A DNA stretch of 64,000 nucleotides from Streptomyces sp. ACA25 (GTDB lineage Bacteria > Actinomycetota > Actinomycetes > Streptomycetales > Streptomycetaceae): positions 62,001-126,000 of the forward strand of contig NZ_JAQKPV010000015.1 in NCBI RefSeq assembly GCF_028200735.1. The letters are read 5' to 3'. The translations under genes were made by a program, and so were the position numbers. Position 1 is the stretch's first letter; every line of letters begins with the position of its first letter. Shown in pieces: positions 51,547 to 62,891 of this stretch. A model generated the notes under the pieces. That model saw only the letters and a list, made by a program, of their open reading frames with translations, ran no database searches and was not told the origin of the DNA.

Positions 51547-52962
51547 ATGTTCCAGAACCCCGACGAAATCAAAAAGTATATCTCGGACAATGACGTCAAG
51601 TTCATCGATGTCCGGTTCTGCGACCTGCCGGGCACGATGCAGCACGTCACGGTCCCGGCCGCGATCTTCGACCCGGCCGAGAAGCTCATGTTCGACGGCT
51701 CGTCCATCCGTGGCTTCCAGGCCATTCACGAGTCCGACATGGCCCTTGTCCCGGACCTGACCACCGCCCGGGTGGATCCGTTCCGCAAGGACAAGACCAT
51801 CAACATCAACTTCTTCATCCACGACCCGATCACGGGCGAGGCGTACAGCCGTGACCCGCGGAACATCGCGAAGAAGGCGGAGGCCTACCTGGCGTCCTCC
51901 GGCATCGCCGACACCGCGTACTTCGGTCCCGAGGCCGAGTTCTACGTCTTCGACGACGTCCGGTTCGAGACCAAGTCGAACGCCGGCTACTACTACATCG
52001 ACTCCGAGGCGGGCGCCTGGAACACCGGCGCCGTCGAGGTCGGTGGCAACCGCGGCTACAAGGTGCGCTACAAGGGCGGCTACTTCCCCGCCCCGCCGGT
52101 CGACCACTTCGCCGACCTGCGGGCCGAGATGTCCCTGGAACTCCAGCAGTCCGGCCTCGAGATCGAGCGGCAGCATCACGAGGTCGGCACCGCCGGCCAG
52201 GCCGAGATCAACTACAAGTACAACACTCTGCTGGCCGCCGCCGACGACCTGATGCTCTTCAAGTACATCGTGAAGAACGTCGCCTGGCGCAACGGCAAGA
52301 CCGCGACCTTCATGCCCAAGCCGATCTTCGGTGACAACGGCTCCGGCATGCACGTCCACCAGTCGCTGTGGAGCAACGGCACCCCGCTCTTCTACGACGA
52401 GCAGGGTTACGCCGGCCTGTCGGACATCGCCCGCTTCTACATCGGCGGCATCCTCAAGCACGCCCCGTCACTGCTGGCCTTCACCAACCCGACGGTGAAC
52501 TCGTACCACCGCCTGGTGCCCGGCTTCGAGGCCCCGGTGAACCTGGTGTACTCGCAGCGGAACCGCTCCGCCGCGATGCGTATCCCGATCACCGGCTCGA
52601 ACCCGAAGGCCAAGCGCGTCGAGTTCCGCGCCCCGGACCCGTCGGCCAACCCGTACCTGGCCTTCTCGGCGCTGATGCTGGCCGGCCTGGACGGCGTGAA
52701 GAACAAGATCGAGCCGGCCGAGCCGATCGACAAGGACCTGTACGAGCTGGCCCCGGAGGAGCACGCCGGTGTCGCACAGGTGCCGACCACGCTGCCCGCC
52801 GTGCTGGAGGCCCTGGAGAACGACAACGAGTACCTCCAGGCCGGTGGCGTCTTCACCCCCGACCTGATCGAGACCTGGGTCGAGTACAAGCGGGAGAAGG
52901 AGATCGCCCCCATGCAGCTCCGCCCGCACCCGCACGAGTTCGAGCTCTATTTCGACGTGTGA
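51547..52962 (+). CDS. glnA: Glutamine synthetase type I
   Basis: GlnA makes glutamine from glutamate, ATP and ammonia, the main nitrogen-assimilation step. The 471-residue protein has the GS signatures [16 protein letters not shown] and [18 protein letters not shown], and the late [21 protein letters not shown]. The adenylylation site Tyr399 lies in [11 protein letters not shown], so it is the adenylylated GSI-beta type. GGAGG precedes the ATG. GlnR boxes lie upstream. A second GS-like gene is at 59609-60994. Confidence 0.98.
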
Positions 52963-53628: not shown

Positions 53629-54912
53629 GTGACCGAACGCAAACAAGCACCGCACCGCACCGCCATCCGCGACTTCCGGCTGTACTGGGCCGCGTCCACC
53701 ACCGACGCAATGGGGAGTCAGGCGTCCGGTCTCGTCCTGCCGCTGTTCCTGCTCGCGGCGGGATACTCGCCGGCGCTGGCCGGAGCGGTGGTCTCCCTGT
53801 CCATGGCGGCCGGTCTGCTGGCTGCCCCCTTCGCGGCGGTGTTCGCCGATCGCGGGGCGCGGCGCCGGACGATGTGGTGGTCCGCCCTGGTGGCCGCCGG
53901 TGCCATGGGTCTGGTCGCGGCGCTGGCGGTCGGCGGCCGGCTGCCGCTGGCCCTGCTGGTGTCGGCGGTACTCGTCGAGCGCGTGGCGACCTCCTGCTAC
54001 TCGGCAGCGGCGAAGGGCTGCGTGGCCGCTCTCGCCTCCCCGGCGGACTACCCGAGGGCGGTGTCACGGCTGCAGGCCGGAGAACAGGGCGCGGTCGTCG
54101 TGGGTCCTGTCCTCGGCGGTGTGCTGTTCCAGGTCGCGCGCTGGCTGCCCTTTCTCGCCGACGCGCTCTCGTACCTCGTTGCGGCCTGGTGCGTGCGGGC
54201 CATCCGCTCCGACCTCGAGCCCGGCCGGCCGGCCGGGCCCGCAACCCGCGCCGTCGGCCTCCGTTCCGTTCTCGCCGACCTCGGGGAGAGCCTGCGGTTC
54301 ACTTGGCGGCAGCCCTTCCTGCGAAGCGTCCTGCTGTGGGCTGCCGGGGTCAACGGCGCACTGGCGGCGCTCTACTACGCGGTTCTGTTCACCCTGCAGC
54401 GGCAGGGGACACCTGCCGCCGCCATCGGACTCGTCCTCGCCGTGACCGGCGCCGCAGGGCTGGCAGGCGCACTCGCCGCTCCCTGGCTGGCCCGTCGGAT
54501 CCCCACCGCCCGGCTGGTCAGGACGGTCTCCTGGACCACCGTGCCGGTGGCCGTCGCACTGGCCCTGGTGGAGCGGGTCTGGTGGTACGGGGCATTGTTC
54601 GGCGCGGTATCCCTGCTGGTCCCCACGCTGTCCGTGCTCCTCGCCGCCCGTGCGATCGCAGTGACCCCGCTCGGGCTCCAGTCGCGGGTGGGCACCGCGC
54701 TGGCCACCGCCTCCGGGATCACCGCGGCCGCGGCCCCCGCCGCCGCCGGGGTCCTGGTAGCACTGGCCGGAACCTCGGCAACCGCCCTGGTGTGCGCCGC
54801 CGCGCTGGCCCTGCTCGCGGGATATGCCTCCGTGACCGTTGCCCGCAGGATCGGGACCGCCTCTCCCGGGGCCCCCGCCGAAGCGGCGACAGCCCTGGGG
54901 GAGACCCCATGA
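53629..54912 (+). CDS. MFS transporter, probable RiPP exporter
   Basis: This 427-residue protein has about twelve hydrophobic helices. The first loop has the MFS-type motif FADRGARRRTMW between helices 2 and 3 (residues about 72-83). The N-terminus AIRDFRLYWAASTTDAMGSQASGL is typical of drug/proton antiporter-like MFS proteins. The GTG at 53629 was chosen because AAGG precedes it and the first helix follows at normal distance. The stop overlaps the peptidase start by four bases (ATGA). It most likely exports the product of the downstream precursor and thus may confer immunity. Confidence 0.88.
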   Translation: MTERKQAPHRTAIRDFRLYWAASTTDAMGSQASGLVLPLFLLAAGYSPALAGAVVSLSMAAGLLAAPFAAVFADRGARRRTMWWSALVAAGAMGLVAALAVGGRLPLALLVSAVLVERVATSCYSAAAKGCVAALASPADYPRAVSRLQAGEQGAVVVGPVLGGVLFQVARWLPFLADALSYLVAAWCVRAIRSDLEPGRPAGPATRAVGLRSVLADLGESLRFTWRQPFLRSVLLWAAGVNGALAALYYAVLFTLQRQGTPAAAIGLVLAVTGAAGLAGALAAPWLARRIPTARLVRTVSWTTVPVAVALALVERVWWYGALFGAVSLLVPTLSVLLAARAIAVTPLGLQSRVGTALATASGITAAAAPAAAGVLVALAGTSATALVCAAALALLAGYASVTVARRIGTASPGAPAEAATALGETP

Positions 54913-56699
54913 GCCCGACGGCCTCCGCGAGCCCGGCCGGCTGGAGCGTCTCCCGGCCGGTCCTGCCCACAGCCTGCCCCCGGGATCCGGACCTCATGGT
55001 GTTCGCCGGGGACGCCGACGGCCGGTGCGAGATTTTCAGCTGGCACGCGGGCACCGGGCGGGCCCGGCAGGTCACCGACCGTGCCGAGGGCACCGCGCGC
55101 TGCGCGATCGACTCCGATGCCGTCATCTGGTGGTTCGCCGAGGAGCGGGACGGCACCGGCAGCTGGCAGGTGCAGAACTTCCACGGCGGCCCGGACAGCC
55201 CGGCACTGACCGGCATCCCGGCGGGGCGGCCCGGCGGCCTCGCGTTCGGCAGCAACGGACGCGCGGCAGTCGGTCTCCGGGACGAGCAGGGTCTGACCGT
55301 CCACCTCGGACAGCGCTCCGGGCCCGCGGAACGAACCCTGCGCATACCCGGCCACGCGACGCTGGCCGGCCTCTCCCCTCGCGAGGACCTGGTGGCCGTC
55401 GCCCGCTCCGCGGGATCCTCCCGGTCCGTCATCGTGCTCACGCCGGACGCGGTCCCCACCGAACTCGACGGGGAGCAGGGGCAGATCTGGGCCCTGGGCT
55501 TCGCTCCTGGCCTGCGCACTCCGGAACTGCTGCTCATCGTCGTGCACGAGGAACGCTACGTCCTCGCGACCTGGACACCGCAGCGCGGGCTGCACAGGCA
55601 CACCTGGTGTTCTTTCGACACCGAGATCACCGCATGCTGGTACCCGCACGACCGCAGGGTGCTGGTCCGTCAGGACCGGCACGGCCGCAGCAGGCTGTAC
55701 GTCGCCGACCCGGAACGGCGGCAGCTGACGCCCGTGCCCGTACCGGCCGGCACCGTCCTGGACGCGACACCGGCCGCCGACGGCACCGTCCGCTGTCTGT
55801 GGACCGACACCCGCACACCCCCTCGGGTCATCTCCACCGGCGATACCACGCCCCGGATGCCGCAGGCGCCCGCCCCGCCCCCGCTGACCGCCCGCACTGC
55901 CGAACTGTGGACTCCCGGCCCGGACGGGCCGGTGCACACCCTGCTCACTCTGCCCGAGAGGGGCACCGCCCCGCACCCCACCGTGTTTCTCGTGCACGGC
56001 GGCCCCGCGGAACACGACCGGGACGCGTACAGCTCGGTGGTGCACTCGCTGGCAGCCTCCGGGCTGGCGGTCGCCCGGGTGAACTACCGCGGCTCCACCG
56101 GCTACGGTCCGCACTGGCGATCCGCCTTCACCGAGGGGGTGGGCCACACTCAGGTCGCCGACCTGGTGGCCGTGCGCGAGGAGCTGGTGCGCTCGGGCCT
56201 GGCCCGGCCGGACGCCATCGGGCTGTGGGGCACCTCCTGGGGCGGCTACCTGGTCCTCCTCGCCCTCGGCAGCCGGCCCGCGCTGTGGCAGGCCGGAGTC
56301 GCCGTGAAACCGGTGGCCGACTGTGCGGCCGCCTACGAACAGGGCACCCCCGCCCTGCGGGCGCTCGACACCGCGCTCTTCGGCGGCACCCCGCAAGAGG
56401 TTCCCGAGCGCTACGCCCGCTCATCGCCGCTCAGCTGTGCCACCCGCGTCCGGGCCCCCCTCCTCGTCGTCGCCGCCACCCGGGACCTCAAGTGCCCGCC
56501 CGGCCAGGTGCGGAACTATCTCGCGGCGCTCCGCGGGGCCGGAGTCCCTTTCGAGGAGCTGTGGCTGGACTCCCAGCACGACGGCCTCGACGGCGCCCAG
56601 CACGTGGAAGTGCTGCGGCGGAGTCTGCACTTCCTGGCCCGCGAGCTGCACGGCTCCCGGGCCGGGAGAACCCGGCACCCAGCCCCGGAGAGGAGGTAA
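54909..56699 (+). CDS. S9 prolyl-oligopeptidase-type serine peptidase
   Basis: This 596-residue cytosolic peptidase has an N-terminal beta-propeller-like region (1-340) and a C-terminal alpha/beta hydrolase domain. The triad is visible: Ser443 in LWGTSWGGYLV, Asp526 in ATRDLKCPP and His557 in DSQHDGLDG. The oxyanion segment VFLVHGGPAEHDRD and the VARVNYRGSTGYGPHW motif are typical of the acylaminoacyl/POP group. Such enzymes commonly cut after Pro in short peptides. It overlaps the MFS gene and ends 4 bases before the precursor gene, with a GGAGG for the precursor lying inside its last codons. It is the likely leader peptidase. Confidence 0.9.
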   Translation: MSPTASASPAGWSVSRPVLPTACPRDPDLMVFAGDADGRCEIFSWHAGTGRARQVTDRAEGTARCAIDSDAVIWWFAEERDGTGSWQVQNFHGGPDSPALTGIPAGRPGGLAFGSNGRAAVGLRDEQGLTVHLGQRSGPAERTLRIPGHATLAGLSPREDLVAVARSAGSSRSVIVLTPDAVPTELDGEQGQIWALGFAPGLRTPELLLIVVHEERYVLATWTPQRGLHRHTWCSFDTEITACWYPHDRRVLVRQDRHGRSRLYVADPERRQLTPVPVPAGTVLDATPAADGTVRCLWTDTRTPPRVISTGDTTPRMPQAPAPPPLTARTAELWTPGPDGPVHTLLTLPERGTAPHPTVFLVHGGPAEHDRDAYSSVVHSLAASGLAVARVNYRGSTGYGPHWRSAFTEGVGHTQVADLVAVREELVRSGLARPDAIGLWGTSWGGYLVLLALGSRPALWQAGVAVKPVADCAAAYEQGTPALRALDTALFGGTPQEVPERYARSSPLSCATRVRAPLLVVAATRDLKCPPGQVRNYLAALRGAGVPFEELWLDSQHDGLDGAQHVEVLRRSLHFLARELHGSRAGRTRHPAPERR

Positions 56700-56703
56700 C
56701 AGC

Positions 56704-56826
56704 ATGGAGAAGGACATCATCCACAACGACCCGCTGGCGGACGACGAGGAAAGTCGCAGTCCGACCATCACCATCACCATCACCATCCCGTTCATGACGC
56801 CTGAGGACGAGCCCTTGGACGTCTGA
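56704..56826 (+). CDS. RiPP precursor peptide with (Thr-Ile)4-Pro segment, 40 aa
   Basis: The 40-residue peptide has an acidic leader of 20 residues (MEKDIIHNDPLADDEESRSP). It is followed by TITITITIP (residues 21-29) and the acidic tail FMTPEDEPLDV. Prolines at 10, 20, 29, 33 and 37 bound short blocks, so a proline-specific peptidase could release residues 21-29. There is no Cys, which rules out thioether or lanthionine chemistry. A strong GGAGG precedes the ATG by 6 bases, so high expression is likely. It is the only small gene in the locus and sits just before the radical SAM gene. A precursor role is inferred from size, composition and position. Confidence 0.82.
   Translation: MEKDIIHNDPLADDEESRSPTITITITIPFMTPEDEPLDV
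56764..56787 (+). repeat. (ACCATC)x4 hexanucleotide repeat encoding (Thr-Ile)4
   Basis: Four exact tandem copies of ACCATC encode TITITITI. Replication slippage in units of six would add or remove one Thr-Ile pair without shifting the frame. Read in another frame the repeat spells alternating CAT/CAC, but it is not a tag. Confidence 0.95.
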
Positions 56827-56836
56827 CCCGCCCGAC

Positions 56837-56872
56837 GGCCGGCCCGGCTGCCGCGCGGCAGCCGGGCCGGCC
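56837..56872 (+). terminator. Perfect 36-nt palindrome between precursor and maturase genes
   Basis: The arms 56837-56854 and 56855-56872 are exact reverse complements over 18 bases. In RNA this would give a stem of about 16 pairs and a 4-base loop. It begins 10 bases past the precursor stop and ends 28 bases before the radical SAM start. It probably acts as a partial terminator or mRNA-processing stop, raising precursor over enzyme level. Confidence 0.85.
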
Positions 56873-56900
56873 CGGCAACGGACCACGGAAGGGAGCCACC

Positions 56901-58838
56901 GTGCAGGTGCTTCTGGTCAACATGCCCTTCTCCCCCATCGACCTTCCCTCGCTCGCCCTGGGCATCCTCAAGCGCAGCGTGAACGAGCGGGTGCCCGGCG
57001 CCCGCGCGGAGGTGCTGCACGGCAATCTCGACTACTACGACTGGCTGAACGCTCAGGAGCCCGGCTTCACCGCCGCGGACTACGCCTACTACGCGCTCTC
57101 CTCCTACTTCCTGGGCTGCGGGGACTGGGTCTTCTCCTCCGCCCTGTACGACGATCCGGAGTGGCGTGCAGCGGAGTTCACCGAGACGATGAGCCGTCCG
57201 CTGGGTGAGGAGCGGCTCGCCCAGACCCTCGCGCTGCACCGGTCTGCCGGGGAGTTCGTCCGGGACCTCGCCGAACGGGTGGTCGCCCGGAAGCCGGACG
57301 TGGTCGGCTTCACCTCGACGTTCCAGCAGAACACCGCGGCCCTGGCCGCCGCCCGGCACATCAAGCGGCTGGCACCGGAGATCGTCACGGTGATGGGAGG
57401 GGCGAACTGTGACGGCACCCAGGGGGAAGCGGTCCACCGCAACTTCCCCTTCGTCGACTACGTGGTGCGCGGTGAGGGGGAGGTGGCATTCCCCGAGCTG
57501 CTCAAGGGCCTCCGGGACAGCTCCGTCCTGCCGGGGGTGGCCGGCCTGTGCCGGCGCGAGGAAACGCGGACCGTCGCCAACCCGATGAGCACCGCTCCGC
57601 TGCCGCCCGCCGCCATCCTGCCGCCGGACTACACCGGCTACTTCGAGCGGCTCGCAGCCTCCGCGGCCGGCTCCGAGATCGAGCCGAAGCTGGTCGTCGA
57701 AGGAGCCCGCGGCTGCTGGTGGGGGGAGAAACACCACTGCACCTTCTGCGGCCTCAACGGCTCCTTCATGAAGTTCCGCAGCAAGGATCCCGAGGTCTTC
57801 TTCGAGGAGATCGTCAGCATGGCCCGCCGGCACCGGGTGCTGGACATGTACGTCGTGGACAACATCCTCGACATGGGGTACGTCACTTCGCTGCTGCCGC
57901 GCCTCATCGAGAGCGGCTACGACCTCCGCATGCATGTCGAGATCAAGGCGAACATGCGCCGGGAGCAGCTGCAGATTCTGGCCGATGCCGGGCTGGTGCA
58001 TGTGCAGCCGGGCATCGAGAGCCTCAACAGCCGGGTGCTCGGGCTGATGGACAAGGGTGTCAGCGGCTGCCAGAACGTGCGGATGCTCCGCGACGGTGCC
58101 AGCACCGGGCTGTCGATCTCCTGGAACTACCTCTACGGCTTTCCGGAGGAGCAGGAGAGCGACTACGACCCGGTGATCGAACAGATTCCGGCGCTGGAAC
58201 ACCTCAACCCGCCGTCCGATCTCTCGGCCCGCATCGCCATAGAGCGCTTCAGCCCGTACTTCAACCGTCCCGAGCTGGGGTTCAGCGACCTGCGGGCCGC
58301 CAGGCCCTACCGGCTGACCTACGACCTGCCCGAACAGGAGCTCTTCGACCTCGCCTACATCTTCGACGCACCGCAGCGCGGCGTGGGAGGGAAGACCGTT
58401 AAACGGCTCAATGACGCACTCCGCGCCTGGAAGGACGCCTACCCGGTCAGCCGTCTCGTCCAGCACGACCTCGGGGACCGCATCGTTCTGCTCAACCGGC
58501 GCCGGGCCTTCGACTGGACCTCGCTCGTCCTGAGCGACCCGGTGGAGCTGGCCGCCTTTCGCCTGCTCGCCCAGCCGCGTACGCCCGCCGCCCTGGTCCG
58601 CAGGCTGGCCGAAGAGCCCGGCAGCCGGGGAGGCGCAGGCCCGGTGGACGTGGATGCGCTGCTGCACCGCTGGCATGCGCTGGGGCTGCTGTTCACCGAC
58701 GCCGGACAGTACGTCCACGTGGCTCCCCTGCCGGTCAACGACGAGGTGCTGCGGCTGCACTTCATGGGGAGCGTGGTCAGTGACTCCCCGGAGGTCCCGG
58801 TGCCGGCTTCTCGCCCGACAGCCCCGGCGCCGGCCTGA
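56901..58838 (+). CDS. B12-binding radical SAM RiPP maturase (RiPP-maturation-1 type)
   Basis: This 645-residue enzyme has a cobalamin-binding Rossmann-type domain at about residues 100-200 (VVGFTSTFQQNTAALAAARHIKRLAPEIVTVMGGANCDG). The radical SAM core follows with Cys272, Cys280 and Cys283 in GCWWGEKHHCTFCGLNG. That CX7CX2C spacing, longer than the classic CX3CX2C, is seen in the RiPP maturation radical SAM protein 1 family (TIGR03975). The family's members are C-methyltransferases or act on peptides. It should methylate or otherwise modify carbon atoms of the precursor. The GTG at 56901 follows AAGGGAG. It is followed by a DUF5825-like gene. Confidence 0.9.
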   Translation: MQVLLVNMPFSPIDLPSLALGILKRSVNERVPGARAEVLHGNLDYYDWLNAQEPGFTAADYAYYALSSYFLGCGDWVFSSALYDDPEWRAAEFTETMSRPLGEERLAQTLALHRSAGEFVRDLAERVVARKPDVVGFTSTFQQNTAALAAARHIKRLAPEIVTVMGGANCDGTQGEAVHRNFPFVDYVVRGEGEVAFPELLKGLRDSSVLPGVAGLCRREETRTVANPMSTAPLPPAAILPPDYTGYFERLAASAAGSEIEPKLVVEGARGCWWGEKHHCTFCGLNGSFMKFRSKDPEVFFEEIVSMARRHRVLDMYVVDNILDMGYVTSLLPRLIESGYDLRMHVEIKANMRREQLQILADAGLVHVQPGIESLNSRVLGLMDKGVSGCQNVRMLRDGASTGLSISWNYLYGFPEEQESDYDPVIEQIPALEHLNPPSDLSARIAIERFSPYFNRPELGFSDLRAARPYRLTYDLPEQELFDLAYIFDAPQRGVGGKTVKRLNDALRAWKDAYPVSRLVQHDLGDRIVLLNRRRAFDWTSLVLSDPVELAAFRLLAQPRTPAALVRRLAEEPGSRGGAGPVDVDALLHRWHALGLLFTDAGQYVHVAPLPVNDEVLRLHFMGSVVSDSPEVPVPASRPTAPAPA

Positions 58839-58888
58839 GCCCCGCGCTTCGTCCCGCTCCCGCCGCTGGATTCCCCCGGAGGAATACC

Positions 58889-59584
58889 GTGAAACCCACA
58901 CCGTCCGCCCCTGCCGACAGCTCACTGGCCGTCAAGGCCTGGCGCGACTACGACGCGCGGACTCTCGCCGTTCCCGGAATGTGCCTGGAGGAAGCAGAGG
59001 CGGGCGGCCCCCCGGAGGAGGCAGTGGACCGCCTCTGGAAGCAGGGCGCCCGGCGCGTGGAACTCCCGGGGACGGTGGATCCCACCGACACCACCGATGC
59101 TGCCCGGACGGTGCAGAAGCTGTGCCTGATCAGGGATCTGACCGCACAGGCGGTGTACACGCAGTGGCGGCTGCGGCTTGCCCCGGCCACTGGTGCCGGG
59201 AGCACGGAGGCCGCCGGTGAAGAGCTCTGGAAGCTGTTCAGCCATCTGCAGCCACCGGCGGTCGTCGAAGGGCCGACGGACGGGGAGGGCCTCATACAGC
59301 GCTGGCGCGCGGGTCACTACGTGGGCAAGTGCGTGTGGCGCCGGGGGCCGGGATTCCTGCAGGTGCGGGACCGTCGGTGGGGCGAGCTGCGCCGGTTCAC
59401 GGTCAGCGAGGACGCGTTCCAGCGGGCCATCGAGGTGCTCGTGCCCGGGGCGCCGGCCTCGGAGGTGCCCGAAGCCGTCCTGAAAGCCTTTCTGACGGAG
59501 AGCCTCGTTCACCGCGTCGGTGATCAGGTCTGGTGGATGCCCTACCGGGCACGCCGCTGGGCCCAGGCCCCCATGATGATCTGA
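58889..59584 (+). CDS. DUF5825-like protein, RiPP locus partner, 231 aa
   Basis: This 231-residue soluble protein begins SLAVKAWRDYDARTLAVPGMCLE and has a central WRLRLAPATGAG segment. A C-terminal HRVGDQVWWMPYRARRW tail follows. From memory it resembles DUF5825 proteins that accompany this class of radical SAM maturase. It has no catalytic motif I recognise and may act as a precursor-binding or recognition partner. GGAGG at 58878-58882 drives the GTG at 58889. It is the last gene of the RiPP group; the next gene is convergent. Confidence 0.75.
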   Translation: MKPTPSAPADSSLAVKAWRDYDARTLAVPGMCLEEAEAGGPPEEAVDRLWKQGARRVELPGTVDPTDTTDAARTVQKLCLIRDLTAQAVYTQWRLRLAPATGAGSTEAAGEELWKLFSHLQPPAVVEGPTDGEGLIQRWRAGHYVGKCVWRRGPGFLQVRDRRWGELRRFTVSEDAFQRAIEVLVPGAPASEVPEAVLKAFLTESLVHRVGDQVWWMPYRARRWAQAPMMI

Positions 59585-59608: not shown

Positions 59609-60994
59609 TCACAGGCGTTCGAAGGTCCGGACGCGCTCCCAGTCGGTCACCGCCGATTCGAAGGCGGCCAGTTCGGTCCGGGCGGCCTGAGCGTAGTGGC
59701 CGACCACGGCCTCACCGAAGATCGTCGTGGCGAGTTCGCTGTTCTCCCAGCGGTGCAGCGCCTCGGTGAGGGTGGCGGGGAGCCGGGGCACCGCCGGGTC
59801 GGTCAGGGCGTTGGCCCGGTGCGGGTCCGGTAGCGGCAGCCGGTGCTCGATACCGTGCATGCCCGCGGCGACGACGGCGGCCACCGCCAGGTAGGGGTTG
59901 GCGTCACCGCCCGGGACGCGGTGTTCGATGCGCAGGGAGTGCCCGGAGCCGACCACCCGGACGGGGCAGGTCCGGTTGTCGCGCCCCCAGGTGATGCCGG
60001 TGGGGGCGAACGCTCCGGGGCGCAGACGCTTGTAGGAGTTGATGTTGGGGGCCATGAGCAGGGTGAAGTCCGCCAGGCAGGCGAGCTGCCCGGCGACGAA
60101 GTGGCGCATCAGCGCGGACATGCCCCGCTCCGGCCCGGCAGACGCGTCATCGTCGTGGGGGTCCGCGAGGACGGCCGAGCCGTCGGTGCCGCGCAGCGAC
60201 AGGTGGATGTGGCAGGAGTTGCCCTCGCCCTCGTCGAACTTGGGCATGAACGTGACGGCGCGGCCCTCCTGTGCGGCGATCTGCTTGGCCCCGGTCTTGA
60301 ACAGGACGTGATGGTCGCAGGTGGTCATCGCCTCGTCGTAGCGGAAGACGATCTCGTACTGGCCGGGGTGCACCTCACCGCGGGCGGTCTCCATGGTGAG
60401 CCCGGCCCGGACCATCTCCCGGCGGATGCGGCGGACCAGCGGCTCCAGGTCGCTCAGCCCTTGGAGGGAGTAGTCGACGTTGTAGCGGGTGCTGGTGCGC
60501 AGACCGTGGTAGCGGCTCTCCCATGCCTGCCGGTAGGAGTCCTGGAAGACCAGGAACTCCAGCTCGGTGCCGGCCAGTGCGGTGAGTCCGCGGCGCGCGA
60601 GCGCGTCGAGCTGTTCCCGCAGGATCCGCCGGGGGGCGACCCGCACCGGCCGGCCGTCCGGCCAGTGGGCGTCGGCGAGGACGAGGGCCGTTCCCGGGTC
60701 CCAGGGGAGGGCGCGCAGAGTGGCGGGGTCCGGGTGCAGGACGAAGTCACCGAAGCCGGTGTTCCAGGCGTCGATGGCGTAGCCGGGGCCGGTGTCCATG
60801 CCGACGTCGGTGGCCAGGAGGTAGAGGCAGGCTCCGAACCCGTCGCGGGCAGCGGTGTCCAGGAAGTGGGGCACCGACAGGCGGCTGCCCTGCAGGCGGC
60901 CCTGGAGGTCGGGCACGGCGACGATGACCTCCTCGATGCGCCCGGCCTCGGCTTCGGCCCGCAGCGTCTCGAAGGTCAGGCGCTCAGCGGTCAC
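59609..60994 (-). CDS. Glutamine-synthetase-like ligase in the siderophore operon
   Basis: This 461-residue protein shows GS-fold motifs: TELEFLVFQDSYRQAWESRYHG, MPKFDEGEGNSCHIHLSL and the late EHRVPGGDANPYLAVAAVVAAG, so it appears catalytically complete. It is closer to GlnA3/GlnA4/PuuA-type gamma-glutamyl-polyamine or -amine ligases than to GlnA, and has no adenylylation Tyr motif. The GTG at 60994 overlaps the end of the siderophore synthetase gene, so translation is coupled. It might glutamylate a diamine or hydroxamate intermediate; the substrate is not shown by the sequence. Confidence 0.88.
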   Translation of the reverse strand: MTAERLTFETLRAEAEAGRIEEVIVAVPDLQGRLQGSRLSVPHFLDTAARDGFGACLYLLATDVGMDTGPGYAIDAWNTGFGDFVLHPDPATLRALPWDPGTALVLADAHWPDGRPVRVAPRRILREQLDALARRGLTALAGTELEFLVFQDSYRQAWESRYHGLRTSTRYNVDYSLQGLSDLEPLVRRIRREMVRAGLTMETARGEVHPGQYEIVFRYDEAMTTCDHHVLFKTGAKQIAAQEGRAVTFMPKFDEGEGNSCHIHLSLRGTDGSAVLADPHDDDASAGPERGMSALMRHFVAGQLACLADFTLLMAPNINSYKRLRPGAFAPTGITWGRDNRTCPVRVVGSGHSLRIEHRVPGGDANPYLAVAAVVAAGMHGIEHRLPLPDPHRANALTDPAVPRLPATLTEALHRWENSELATTIFGEAVVGHYAQAARTELAAFESAVTDWERVRTFERL

Positions 60995-62891
60995 AACTGC
61001 CCCCGGCGGTGGCTTCATTGCGGCCGGCGGCCGGGCGGGCGGTGGCGAGGGGGTTGGTGACGCGGCCGTGAACGACGTCGAAGCCCTCGTCCCGCTCCGC
61101 CCGGTCGTGGAACGCACCGCCCAGGAGCTGCTCGCGATTGAGCGCCACCCGGTCGAACTCCGGGGCGAACAGCCCGAAGTCCTGGAAGCGGTCGGCGAGC
61201 TCCGGGAAGCGGGCATGGTAGCGCTCGATCTCGGCACGCACCATGGCCCAGAAGGTGTGCTCCGGCAGCGCCAGGTGCTCCGCCAGCAGCGGGGCGAAGA
61301 ACCGGAAGTGCCCGGCGAAGACCGCGCTCAGCAGGGAGTGCGCCAGCTCGTGGGCGGGCCAGCGCAGCAGCACCCGGTCGGCGCGGGCGGAGAGGTCCGC
61401 GTACTCGGGGCGGTCACCGGGAAGGAGATTGACGTCCTCGGCGAAGTCCTTCACGGCGATGCCGACCGGGGTGTCGGTGGCGTCGTGGAGGACGACGGTG
61501 TTCTCGCCGTGCGGGCAGAAGGCCACGCCGTAGCGGTAGAGGTGGTGGAGCAGGCCGGGCAGCAGGGCGTGCAGGAAGCGGCCGAGCCAGTCGGCGGGGG
61601 TGCGGCCGGAACGCCGGACGAGTTCGGTGACGAGCGCACGGCCGTCGGAGCCCACGCTGAGGAGCGCCGCCATGGTGCGGGCCCGCTCGCCGTCGGCCAG
61701 CAGGGCGGCTACCGGTTCGCGCCAGACCGCGCCGAGCAGTTCGTGGTAGCGGTAGGGCGCGTCCCGCACCGATGCGTAGAGCGGGTGCCGGACCGCGACC
61801 GAGGCCTCTTCTCCGAGGGGGTGGCAGCGCAGCTCGTCCCGGAGGTAGGGGTCGGTGTCGCGCAGTCCGTGCAGCCAGGCGCTGATGTCGGGTGCGGCGG
61901 CAGTGGGTTCGGTGGACAGTCCGCGCCAGACGAGGGTGTTGCGGATGAGCAGCGGCACCTTGACGTTGCGGCGGTGCGGGTGGTCCAGGTTGGCGAGGGT
62001 GCGGATGGACTGCAGCGGGCGGTACCGGTCCGGGGCCTCACCGAGGCGGATGATGCGGCCGTCGGCGAGGTAGGGGGCGAACAGGGTTTCCACCGCCTCG
62101 TCCCAGTGGAAGGGGTGCACGGGCAGCCAGGTGAAGTCGTCGGGCGCGTGGCCGCTGTCCGCGCAGGACGCGGCCAGGGCGGTGCCGAATCGGTGCAGGG
62201 TGCCGGGGTTGAGCTCCTGGGACAGCAGGGCACCGGCGTCCAGGCCGGGTATGCCGGAGTACCGGGCAAGGCTGTGGTGGACTGCGGCCCAGACCAGGCG
62301 CACGGCACCGGCTGTCTCGGGCGCGTAGGCGGCGGCATCGGAGGCGGCGAAGCCGAGACGGCCCTTGTTGAGCAGCATGCAGGGGTGCCCGTCCTGGTGG
62401 GCCTCGAGCTCCAGGTGATCCAGGTCGGCGAGCCGGGCGGCGGGCAGCGCCCGGGTGCGGGCCTCGGCGTCCGCCCGGCGGGTGGCGGTGAGTTCCCGCA
62501 GTACCTCGGCGGTGGTCGGGCCGTCCCAGCCGAGGGTGGAGCGGGCGTCGAGGAGGAGCTGCTCGGGGCCCGCCTCCCCGTCCACGGCCGCATCCCCGCT
62601 GTCCGCCGTGGCGGGGTGCCGGCGGAGGGTGCCCTCGGTGAGACGCCAGGTCCCGAAGGTGCCGCGGGTGGCCCGGAACGTCCAGTGCACCCCGTCGCCG
62701 AAGTCCAGCCGGTACGGGCGGCCGGCTCCCTCGGGCAGCGGGCCGTCGGTTCCGGAGCCGCCGGGCGGGCCGGTCCCGTCGGACGGTTCCGGGACGGGCG
62801 TCAGCAGTTCCTCGTAGGCGAACTCCTCGACGGCCTTGGTGAGCAGCCGCCGTCCTGCTTCTTCCCAGGCGGCACGGGTGGGGCGGTTCAC
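60984..62891 (-). CDS. IucA/IucC-family NIS siderophore synthetase
   Basis: This 635-residue ATP-dependent synthetase has the IucA/IucC blocks EAHQDGHPCMLLNKGRLGF, LPVHPFHWDEAVETLF and RHPLYASVRDAPYRYHELLG. The late YGVAFCPHGENTVVLHDATDTPVGIAVKDFAED segment holds ATP/metal residues. The C-terminal FhuF-like region ends NEATAGGSCDR. It condenses carboxylates or hydroxylated amines to make siderophores such as desferrioxamine. The GTG at 62891 overlaps the hydroxylase stop (GTGA). Its stop overlaps the GS-like gene start. Confidence 0.95.
   Translation of the reverse strand: MNRPTRAAWEEAGRRLLTKAVEEFAYEELLTPVPEPSDGTGPPGGSGTDGPLPEGAGRPYRLDFGDGVHWTFRATRGTFGTWRLTEGTLRRHPATADSGDAAVDGEAGPEQLLLDARSTLGWDGPTTAEVLRELTATRRADAEARTRALPAARLADLDHLELEAHQDGHPCMLLNKGRLGFAASDAAAYAPETAGAVRLVWAAVHHSLARYSGIPGLDAGALLSQELNPGTLHRFGTALAASCADSGHAPDDFTWLPVHPFHWDEAVETLFAPYLADGRIIRLGEAPDRYRPLQSIRTLANLDHPHRRNVKVPLLIRNTLVWRGLSTEPTAAAPDISAWLHGLRDTDPYLRDELRCHPLGEEASVAVRHPLYASVRDAPYRYHELLGAVWREPVAALLADGERARTMAALLSVGSDGRALVTELVRRSGRTPADWLGRFLHALLPGLLHHLYRYGVAFCPHGENTVVLHDATDTPVGIAVKDFAEDVNLLPGDRPEYADLSARADRVLLRWPAHELAHSLLSAVFAGHFRFFAPLLAEHLALPEHTFWAMVRAEIERYHARFPELADRFQDFGLFAPEFDRVALNREQLLGGAFHDRAERDEGFDVVHGRVTNPLATARPAAGRNEATAGGSCDR

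Follow-up and report, generated by a model that had tools for sequence, protein, structure and literature searches.

The DNA analysed here, hereafter the window, is a stretch of 64,000 nucleotides from Streptomyces sp. ACA25 (contig NZ_JAQKPV010000015.1, positions 62,001 to 126,000), and between its positions 53629 and 59584 it carries five genes on the same strand, which encode an MFS exporter, an S9 peptidase, a peptide of 40 amino acids, a B12-dependent radical S-adenosylmethionine (rSAM) enzyme and a DUF5825 protein (Table 1). With a probability of about 0.88, this locus is an operon of the clavusporin type for a ribosomally synthesized and post-translationally modified peptide (RiPP). A preliminary description, made from the sequence alone, had already listed the five genes with their overlaps and short spacing, and all of them were recovered at the same coordinates. 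The MFS and peptidase genes share an ATGA overlap, the AGGAGG of the precursor gene sits inside the last bases of the peptidase gene, and the DUF5825 gene begins 50 bp downstream of the rSAM gene. The GC content at third codon positions is 0.84-0.91 across the five genes, all frames are open, and none of the five contains a TTA codon. The functions that had been proposed were borne out by family matches: MFS_1, Peptidase_S9 and PF19142 for exporter, peptidase and partner protein, and TIGR03975, PF02310 and the cysteines C272, C280 and C283 for a RiPP-maturation rSAM enzyme with a CX7CX2C motif and a cobalamin domain. The genome (5.43 Mb, 99.6% complete) holds a single match to the window rSAM at E 0.001.

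Table 1. Features of the operon, with positions in the window.
Feature	Position	Strand	Length and evidence
MFS exporter	53629..54912	+	427 aa, GTG start; Pfam MFS_1 E 9.1e-23
S9 prolyl-oligopeptidase-family peptidase, probable leader peptidase	54909..56699	+	596 aa; Peptidase_S9 E 3e-37
Precursor peptide MEKDIIHNDPLADDEESRSPTITITITIPFMTPEDEPLDV	56704..56826	+	40 aa
Predicted core Thr-Ile-Thr-Ile-Thr-Ile-Thr-Ile-Pro	56764..56790	+	DNA (ACCATC)4 CCG; comparison of 63 distinct eight-residue cores
Hairpin in precursor-rSAM gap	56837..56872	+	Perfect 16-bp stem, 4-base loop
B12-dependent rSAM, probable peptide C-methyltransferase	56901..58838	+	645 aa, GTG start; TIGR03975 593.2 bits
B12-binding domain of rSAM	57261..57503	+	PF02310 E 4.4e-12, residues 121-201
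CX7CX2C [4Fe-4S] cluster motif of rSAM (C272, C280, C283)	57714..57749	+	Sequence
DUF5825 partner protein	58889..59584	+	231 aa, GTG start; PF19142 230.8 bits

The conservation of the operon was followed in two sets of loci. The first came from a DUF5825 search of the 297 genomes of the taxonomic family, which gave 73 rows in 65 genomes (own genome included); 60 rows were taken, and those left out were the window's own and 12 others, mostly weak or partial. The second, here called the named set, came from an rSAM scan that returned 523 stretches encoding a relative, the best 80 of which were used. A relative of the window rSAM was present in all 60 stretches of the first set, where an MxKD-type precursor preceded it in 28 and the five genes stood complete and in order in 26 of these 28. 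All five genes occurred in 68 of the 80 named loci, in identical order with MFS first in every one of the 68, and the precursor was found in 75. In two of the five loci without it, the sequence ahead of the rSAM gene contains runs of N; in two others the contig begins no more than about 110 bases from that gene, and in one no precursor was found; several further incomplete named loci also sit on short contigs. In a precursor search of the genus (392 genomes), the peptide was found in 53, own genome included. The 40-residue reading frame had been put forward as the precursor in the preliminary description, and homologues of it do occur at other loci; because 75 of the 80 named loci have one ahead of the rSAM gene, a chance open reading frame is ruled out. 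A separate DUF5825/rSAM lineage (loci L062, L063 and L065-L071) has a precursor family of its own, [MV]KRRSxx[NS]DP..., and a prolyl oligopeptidase relative in eight of the nine. Two close rSAM relatives (L046 and L162), at which MFS and peptidase genes were not detected, have altered precursors whose last residues are ...MRLIDIPIPAVRE and ...MIWINIPIGNTGD, and two other loci (L101 and L079) hold two candidate precursor genes in tandem.

The precursor itself matched no Pfam or NCBIfam family. It probably consists of a leader of about residues 1-20, the core TITITITIP and an acidic follower. Its 40 residues include no cysteine, the donor residue of sactipeptides, and TITITITIP includes no aromatic residue. 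For comparison, 106 precursors were collected, namely the 28 and 75 of the two sets, those of the window and of Streptomyces clavuligerus, and the additional precursor of one locus; as the two sets overlap in genomes, distinct peptides were counted, of which there are 74. The leader hallmark is MxKDxI.NDPL...R.P, and the window peptide has both MxKD..NDPL and an alternating aliphatic core. The pattern R[KRSA][PV]-8 residues-P fits 63 of the 74 distinct precursors. Every one of these 63 eight-residue cores has Ile or Val at positions 2, 4, 6 and 8, and in 55 of them positions 1, 3, 5 and 7 are taken up entirely by Gly, Ser, Thr or Ala. Thr at positions 1, 3, 5 and 7 together occurs in the window core only, which is the most regular of the cores compared. 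Four identical Thr-Ile units make a naturally idealised substrate in a family whose enzyme reportedly methylates carbons of amino acids, and so simple a repeat would let the methylated residue and carbon be read off. At the DNA level, the 24-base (ACCATC)4 at 56764-56787 has one exact copy in the whole genome. Given the peptide and the codon use of five genes in the window, the chance that its Thr-Ile codons are four times ACC and four times ATC is about 0.125, so the exact repeat requires no special cause. An origin by slippage or from a vector was rejected, and a tag is made unlikely by the protein context; in a shifted frame the repeat spells a His run that resembles a His-tag and could be mistaken for vector sequence.

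The rSAM enzyme scored 593.2 bits with TIGR03975, the RiPP maturation radical SAM C-methyltransferase family, against a cut-off of 281.85. A Pfam scan at E 0.001 matched B12-binding (E 4.4e-12) and Radical_SAM (E 2.4e-10) and gave no SPASM domain. The three columns of the cluster motif are invariant in 41 of 41 aligned rSAMs, and the CX7CX2C pattern was found in 139 of the 140 collected. The structural model of the enzyme (pLDDT 87.9, with low confidence around the cluster motif) is nearest to TokK (Z 21.3, root-mean-square deviation 3.9 over 414 residues); the B12 rSAM enzymes TokK, CysS, OxsB and TsrM all match it at Z 19-21, which is consistent with radical methyl transfer. The product is very probably a short hydrophobic peptide with side chains methylated by the B12-dependent enzyme.

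The clavusporin (mpc) system is the subject of an article by Zhang, Li, Overton and Seyedsayamdost in Nat Chem Biol in 2025 (10.1038/s41589-025-01882-8). Clavusporins are reportedly C-methylated, hydrophobic peptides which reduce surface tension and promote development in Streptomyces, and the operon behind them is reportedly widespread in actinomycetes. According to the passages of two later articles that deal with this system, a homologous B12-rSAM/DUF5825 pair performs C-methylations in clavusporin biosynthesis (PMC12257519), and the prolyl oligopeptidase (POP) MpcP is involved in removal of the leader (PMC12951456). The window shares this enzyme pair and the peptidase. A plasmid search placed relatives of the window rSAM on S. 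clavuligerus plasmids, and on pSCL4 of S. clavuligerus F613-1 (L206) the order is MFS, alpha/beta hydrolase, precursor MQKDVIHNDPLAGDEENRKPSVGITITVPFRNAEDADED, rSAM and DUF5825; this precursor gene is missing from the PLSDB gene table for plasmids, which is incomplete. Identities between the window and S. clavuligerus are 68% for rSAM, 56% for the peptidase, 50% for DUF5825 and 47% for MFS. The cores differ (TITITITI in the window, SVGITITV in S. clavuligerus), as do the followers (FMTPEDEPLDV and FRNAEDADED). If the pSCL4 operon is the published one, the MFS exporter, the leader hallmarks and the alternating core are shared with the clavusporin system as well, and the MxKD..NDPL leader with an alternating core would define the published family. 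Because the clavusporin system has been reported with homologous enzymes and the S. clavuligerus operon is alike, the product class is one already described, and the window holds a further, well-formed member of it.

A tree of 78 rSAM rows (longer than 550 aa, 90% identity cut, quick method), in which long branches elsewhere leave the deep part unsure, joined the window with S. hainanensis and Streptomyces sp. MP131-18 (SH-aLRT 99), within a clade of 54 rows that have MxKD precursors in 52. These nearest kin, S. hainanensis DSM 41900 (L092, on a short contig on which the MFS gene was not found) and MP131-18 (L093), resemble the window in their MEKD leader, in having Thr at positions 3, 5 and 7 of the core and in a PLM..PEDEDL follower, whereas their rSAMs are 74-75% identical to it and their cores, SVTVTITV and AVTVTITV, are not all Thr and Ile. 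Given these sister cores and the common PEDE-type follower, a local trend seems to culminate in the all-Thr-Ile core.

Several observations weigh against assigning the window to the clavusporin type. Identity between the named set and the window is only 65-75% for rSAM and 40-57% for DUF5825, and owing to this divergence the number and sites of methylations may differ. The pSCL4 operon is taken to be the published locus on the strength of the name and of citing papers. Eleven of the 74 distinct precursors have other cores outside the R[KRSA][PV]-8 residues-P pattern, and Pro20 is replaced by Val in some relatives, so a rule of cleavage at Pro20 is not general. Neither a sigma-70 promoter match nor a T-run terminator was found between 52900 and 59900. 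Finally, some B12-rSAM enzymes do other chemistry, since PbsB is described in a passage of PMC12257519 as cross-linking ortho-tyrosines.

This last point bears on the foremost alternative, in which the rSAM acts on Ile or Thr by cyclopropane formation, desaturation or cross-linking rather than by C-methylation, with B12 in another role. Beside PbsB, it can draw on an rSAM-SPASM enzyme that, in the part of the source consulted, forms poly-cyclopropylglycine on the highly repetitive precursor of the TVG pathway, a peptide presumed to undergo repeated modification by the rSAM, as would be the case here (PMC9062424). The TVG enzyme is of the SPASM type, however, whereas the window has a B12-rSAM/DUF5825 pair in which the Pfam scan detected no SPASM domain. 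The pbs-related, biphenomycin-like clusters that have YHxYxY precursors do hold a second B12-rSAM with DUF5825, but theirs is an MNIO-based route on aromatic motifs (same passage of PMC12257519), and the window precursor has no Cys and no aromatic residue in TITITITIP. As TIGR03975 is a C-methyltransferase subfamily matched far above its cut-off, and a homologous rSAM/DUF5825 pair is reported there to C-methylate, this alternative is improbable. It is less probable still that the locus is decayed or silent and makes no product: the missing sigma-70-type match (weak evidence for a Streptomyces) and the divergence of rSAM and DUF5825 from most relatives would suit it, but the frames are open, with the third-position GC given above and no TTA codons, and the locus has kept its cluster motif, its hairpin and the hallmarks of the precursor.

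As a clavusporin-type operon, the locus would work as follows. The precursor is probably produced in excess over the enzymes, aided by the hairpin 3' of its gene, and its leader would be held by the DUF5825/rSAM pair. The B12-rSAM would then methylate the alternating aliphatic core at unactivated carbons of its side chains; the strict alternation of Ile/Val points to the aliphatic residues at positions 2, 4, 6 and 8 as the most probable sites, and Thr may be methylated too. Cleavage by the prolyl oligopeptidase would occur behind Pro20 and perhaps behind Pro29 as well; export of the very hydrophobic peptide, probably a surfactant in development, would fall to the MFS protein. The sequence of C-methylation, cleavage and export that the preliminary description had proposed thus agrees with the relatives and with the clavusporin reports, so far as the passages cited go (PMC12257519; PMC12951456), and the chemistry would apply to the Thr-Ile core by analogy.

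The gap between the precursor and rSAM genes, which holds the GC-rich hairpin, folds with a z score of -3.4 over its whole length. Corresponding gaps were surveyed if they were free of N, 21 to 329 bases long and not duplicates of a gap already included. With loops of up to 12 bases, 95 distinct gaps were compared, that of S. clavuligerus among them: 74 have a stem of at least 9 bp, and in 74 the stem exceeds the best of 20 shuffles. The S. clavuligerus gap itself has a stem of only 6 bp under this limit and a fold z of -4.4. In the control gap between rSAM and DUF5825, 9 bp were reached in 3 of 94 and the shuffles exceeded in 4 of 94. When loops of up to 20 bases were allowed, stems of at least 9 bp were present in 82 of 94 distinct gaps (without S. 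clavuligerus) and missing in 12. These 82 stems have 56 different 5' arms, some distinct only by length or offset, and lie at a median of 6 bases past the precursor stop. No T run stands at the window hairpin, and no Rfam family was matched at the gathering score between 52900 and 59900. We infer a device that yields more precursor than enzyme message, by attenuation or by protection of a 3' end. The clavusporin-related passages of PMC12257519 and PMC12951456 do not mention such a hairpin.

The DUF5825 protein matched PF19142 far above the cut-off of 25 bits. Its AlphaFold model (pLDDT 91.1, pTM 0.88) has three beta/alpha units followed by three strands, helices and a two-strand wing. Foldseek gave no match to this model at E 0.001, and the top rows of VIA-align, RadC (Z 5.1) and ThcOx (Z 4.9), lie within the range that the tool assigns to common arrangements. 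The ThcOx row (59 residues, root-mean-square deviation 2.3) pairs model residues 146-208 with ThcOx residues 11-87, which we take to be RRE-like, at a score too low to rely on. Fifty DUF5825 members showed no further Pfam family below E 0.06, and a sequence search of the PDB gave a single match at E 0.4.

A relationship emerged when profiles were compared. The profile of 50 DUF5825 members aligned over residues 51-213 with columns 354-601 of 41 rSAMs (E 6.2e-6, probability 85%), with a score of 50.0. Column shuffles (60) reached at most 24.3, block shuffles (60) at most 31.3, and the reversed profile 16.9. With 16 more divergent rSAMs, the match reached E 9.9e-8 and a probability of 94%; its score was 62.5, and none of 40 block shuffles exceeded 27.0. 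As controls, the operon peptidase scored 26.2 (E 0.015) and MFS 16.2 (E 0.28). The motif HLxPP is present in 50 of 50 DUF5825 proteins and 36 of 41 rSAMs, and the order of strands and helices agrees between the two models when both are read side by side. Other results speak against homology. The N-terminal half alone reaches the collinear place only at E 5.8e-4, and the C-terminal half alone hits another place among the 41 rSAMs (E 0.03). Against the sets of 12 and of 16 more divergent rSAMs the C half also fails; only when compared with the four most divergent does it land collinearly (E 4.9e-4). Masking of HLxPP weakens the match to E 1.3e-3, and the block shuffles (31.3) and the POP control (26.2, E 0.015) come near the scores of the halves alone. 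On balance, the profiles indicate that DUF5825 is probably homologous to the C-terminal half of its rSAM partner, as a shortened relative; a role as leader binder is less secure. More tentatively, with odds somewhat short of even, DUF5825 may be a catalytically dead relative of that half which pairs with the enzyme and carries the leader binding, the pair acting on the regular (Thr-Ile)4 strand to give an evenly methylated amphipathic surfactant. The part shared, under this same tentative proposal, may be three beta/alpha units of the barrel and a C-terminal winged-helix-like domain with HLxPP. If true, the kinship offers a structural hypothesis for a protein family whose function is given as unknown in Pfam; the DUF5825 passage of PMC12257519 makes no mention of it.

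The operon is flanked by glnA and by an opposite-strand gene resembling a second glutamine synthetase (51547-52962 and 59609-61237), both named from reading of their translations and not from a family search. These two genes, a small gene upstream and the next gene downstream had no match at E 1e-30 in 140 loci (L032-L171) with limited flanks, for which reason the result says little on the wider site. Elsewhere in the genome, four chaplin-domain matches were found (contigs C67 and C87), so that other surface-active developmental proteins are probably present.

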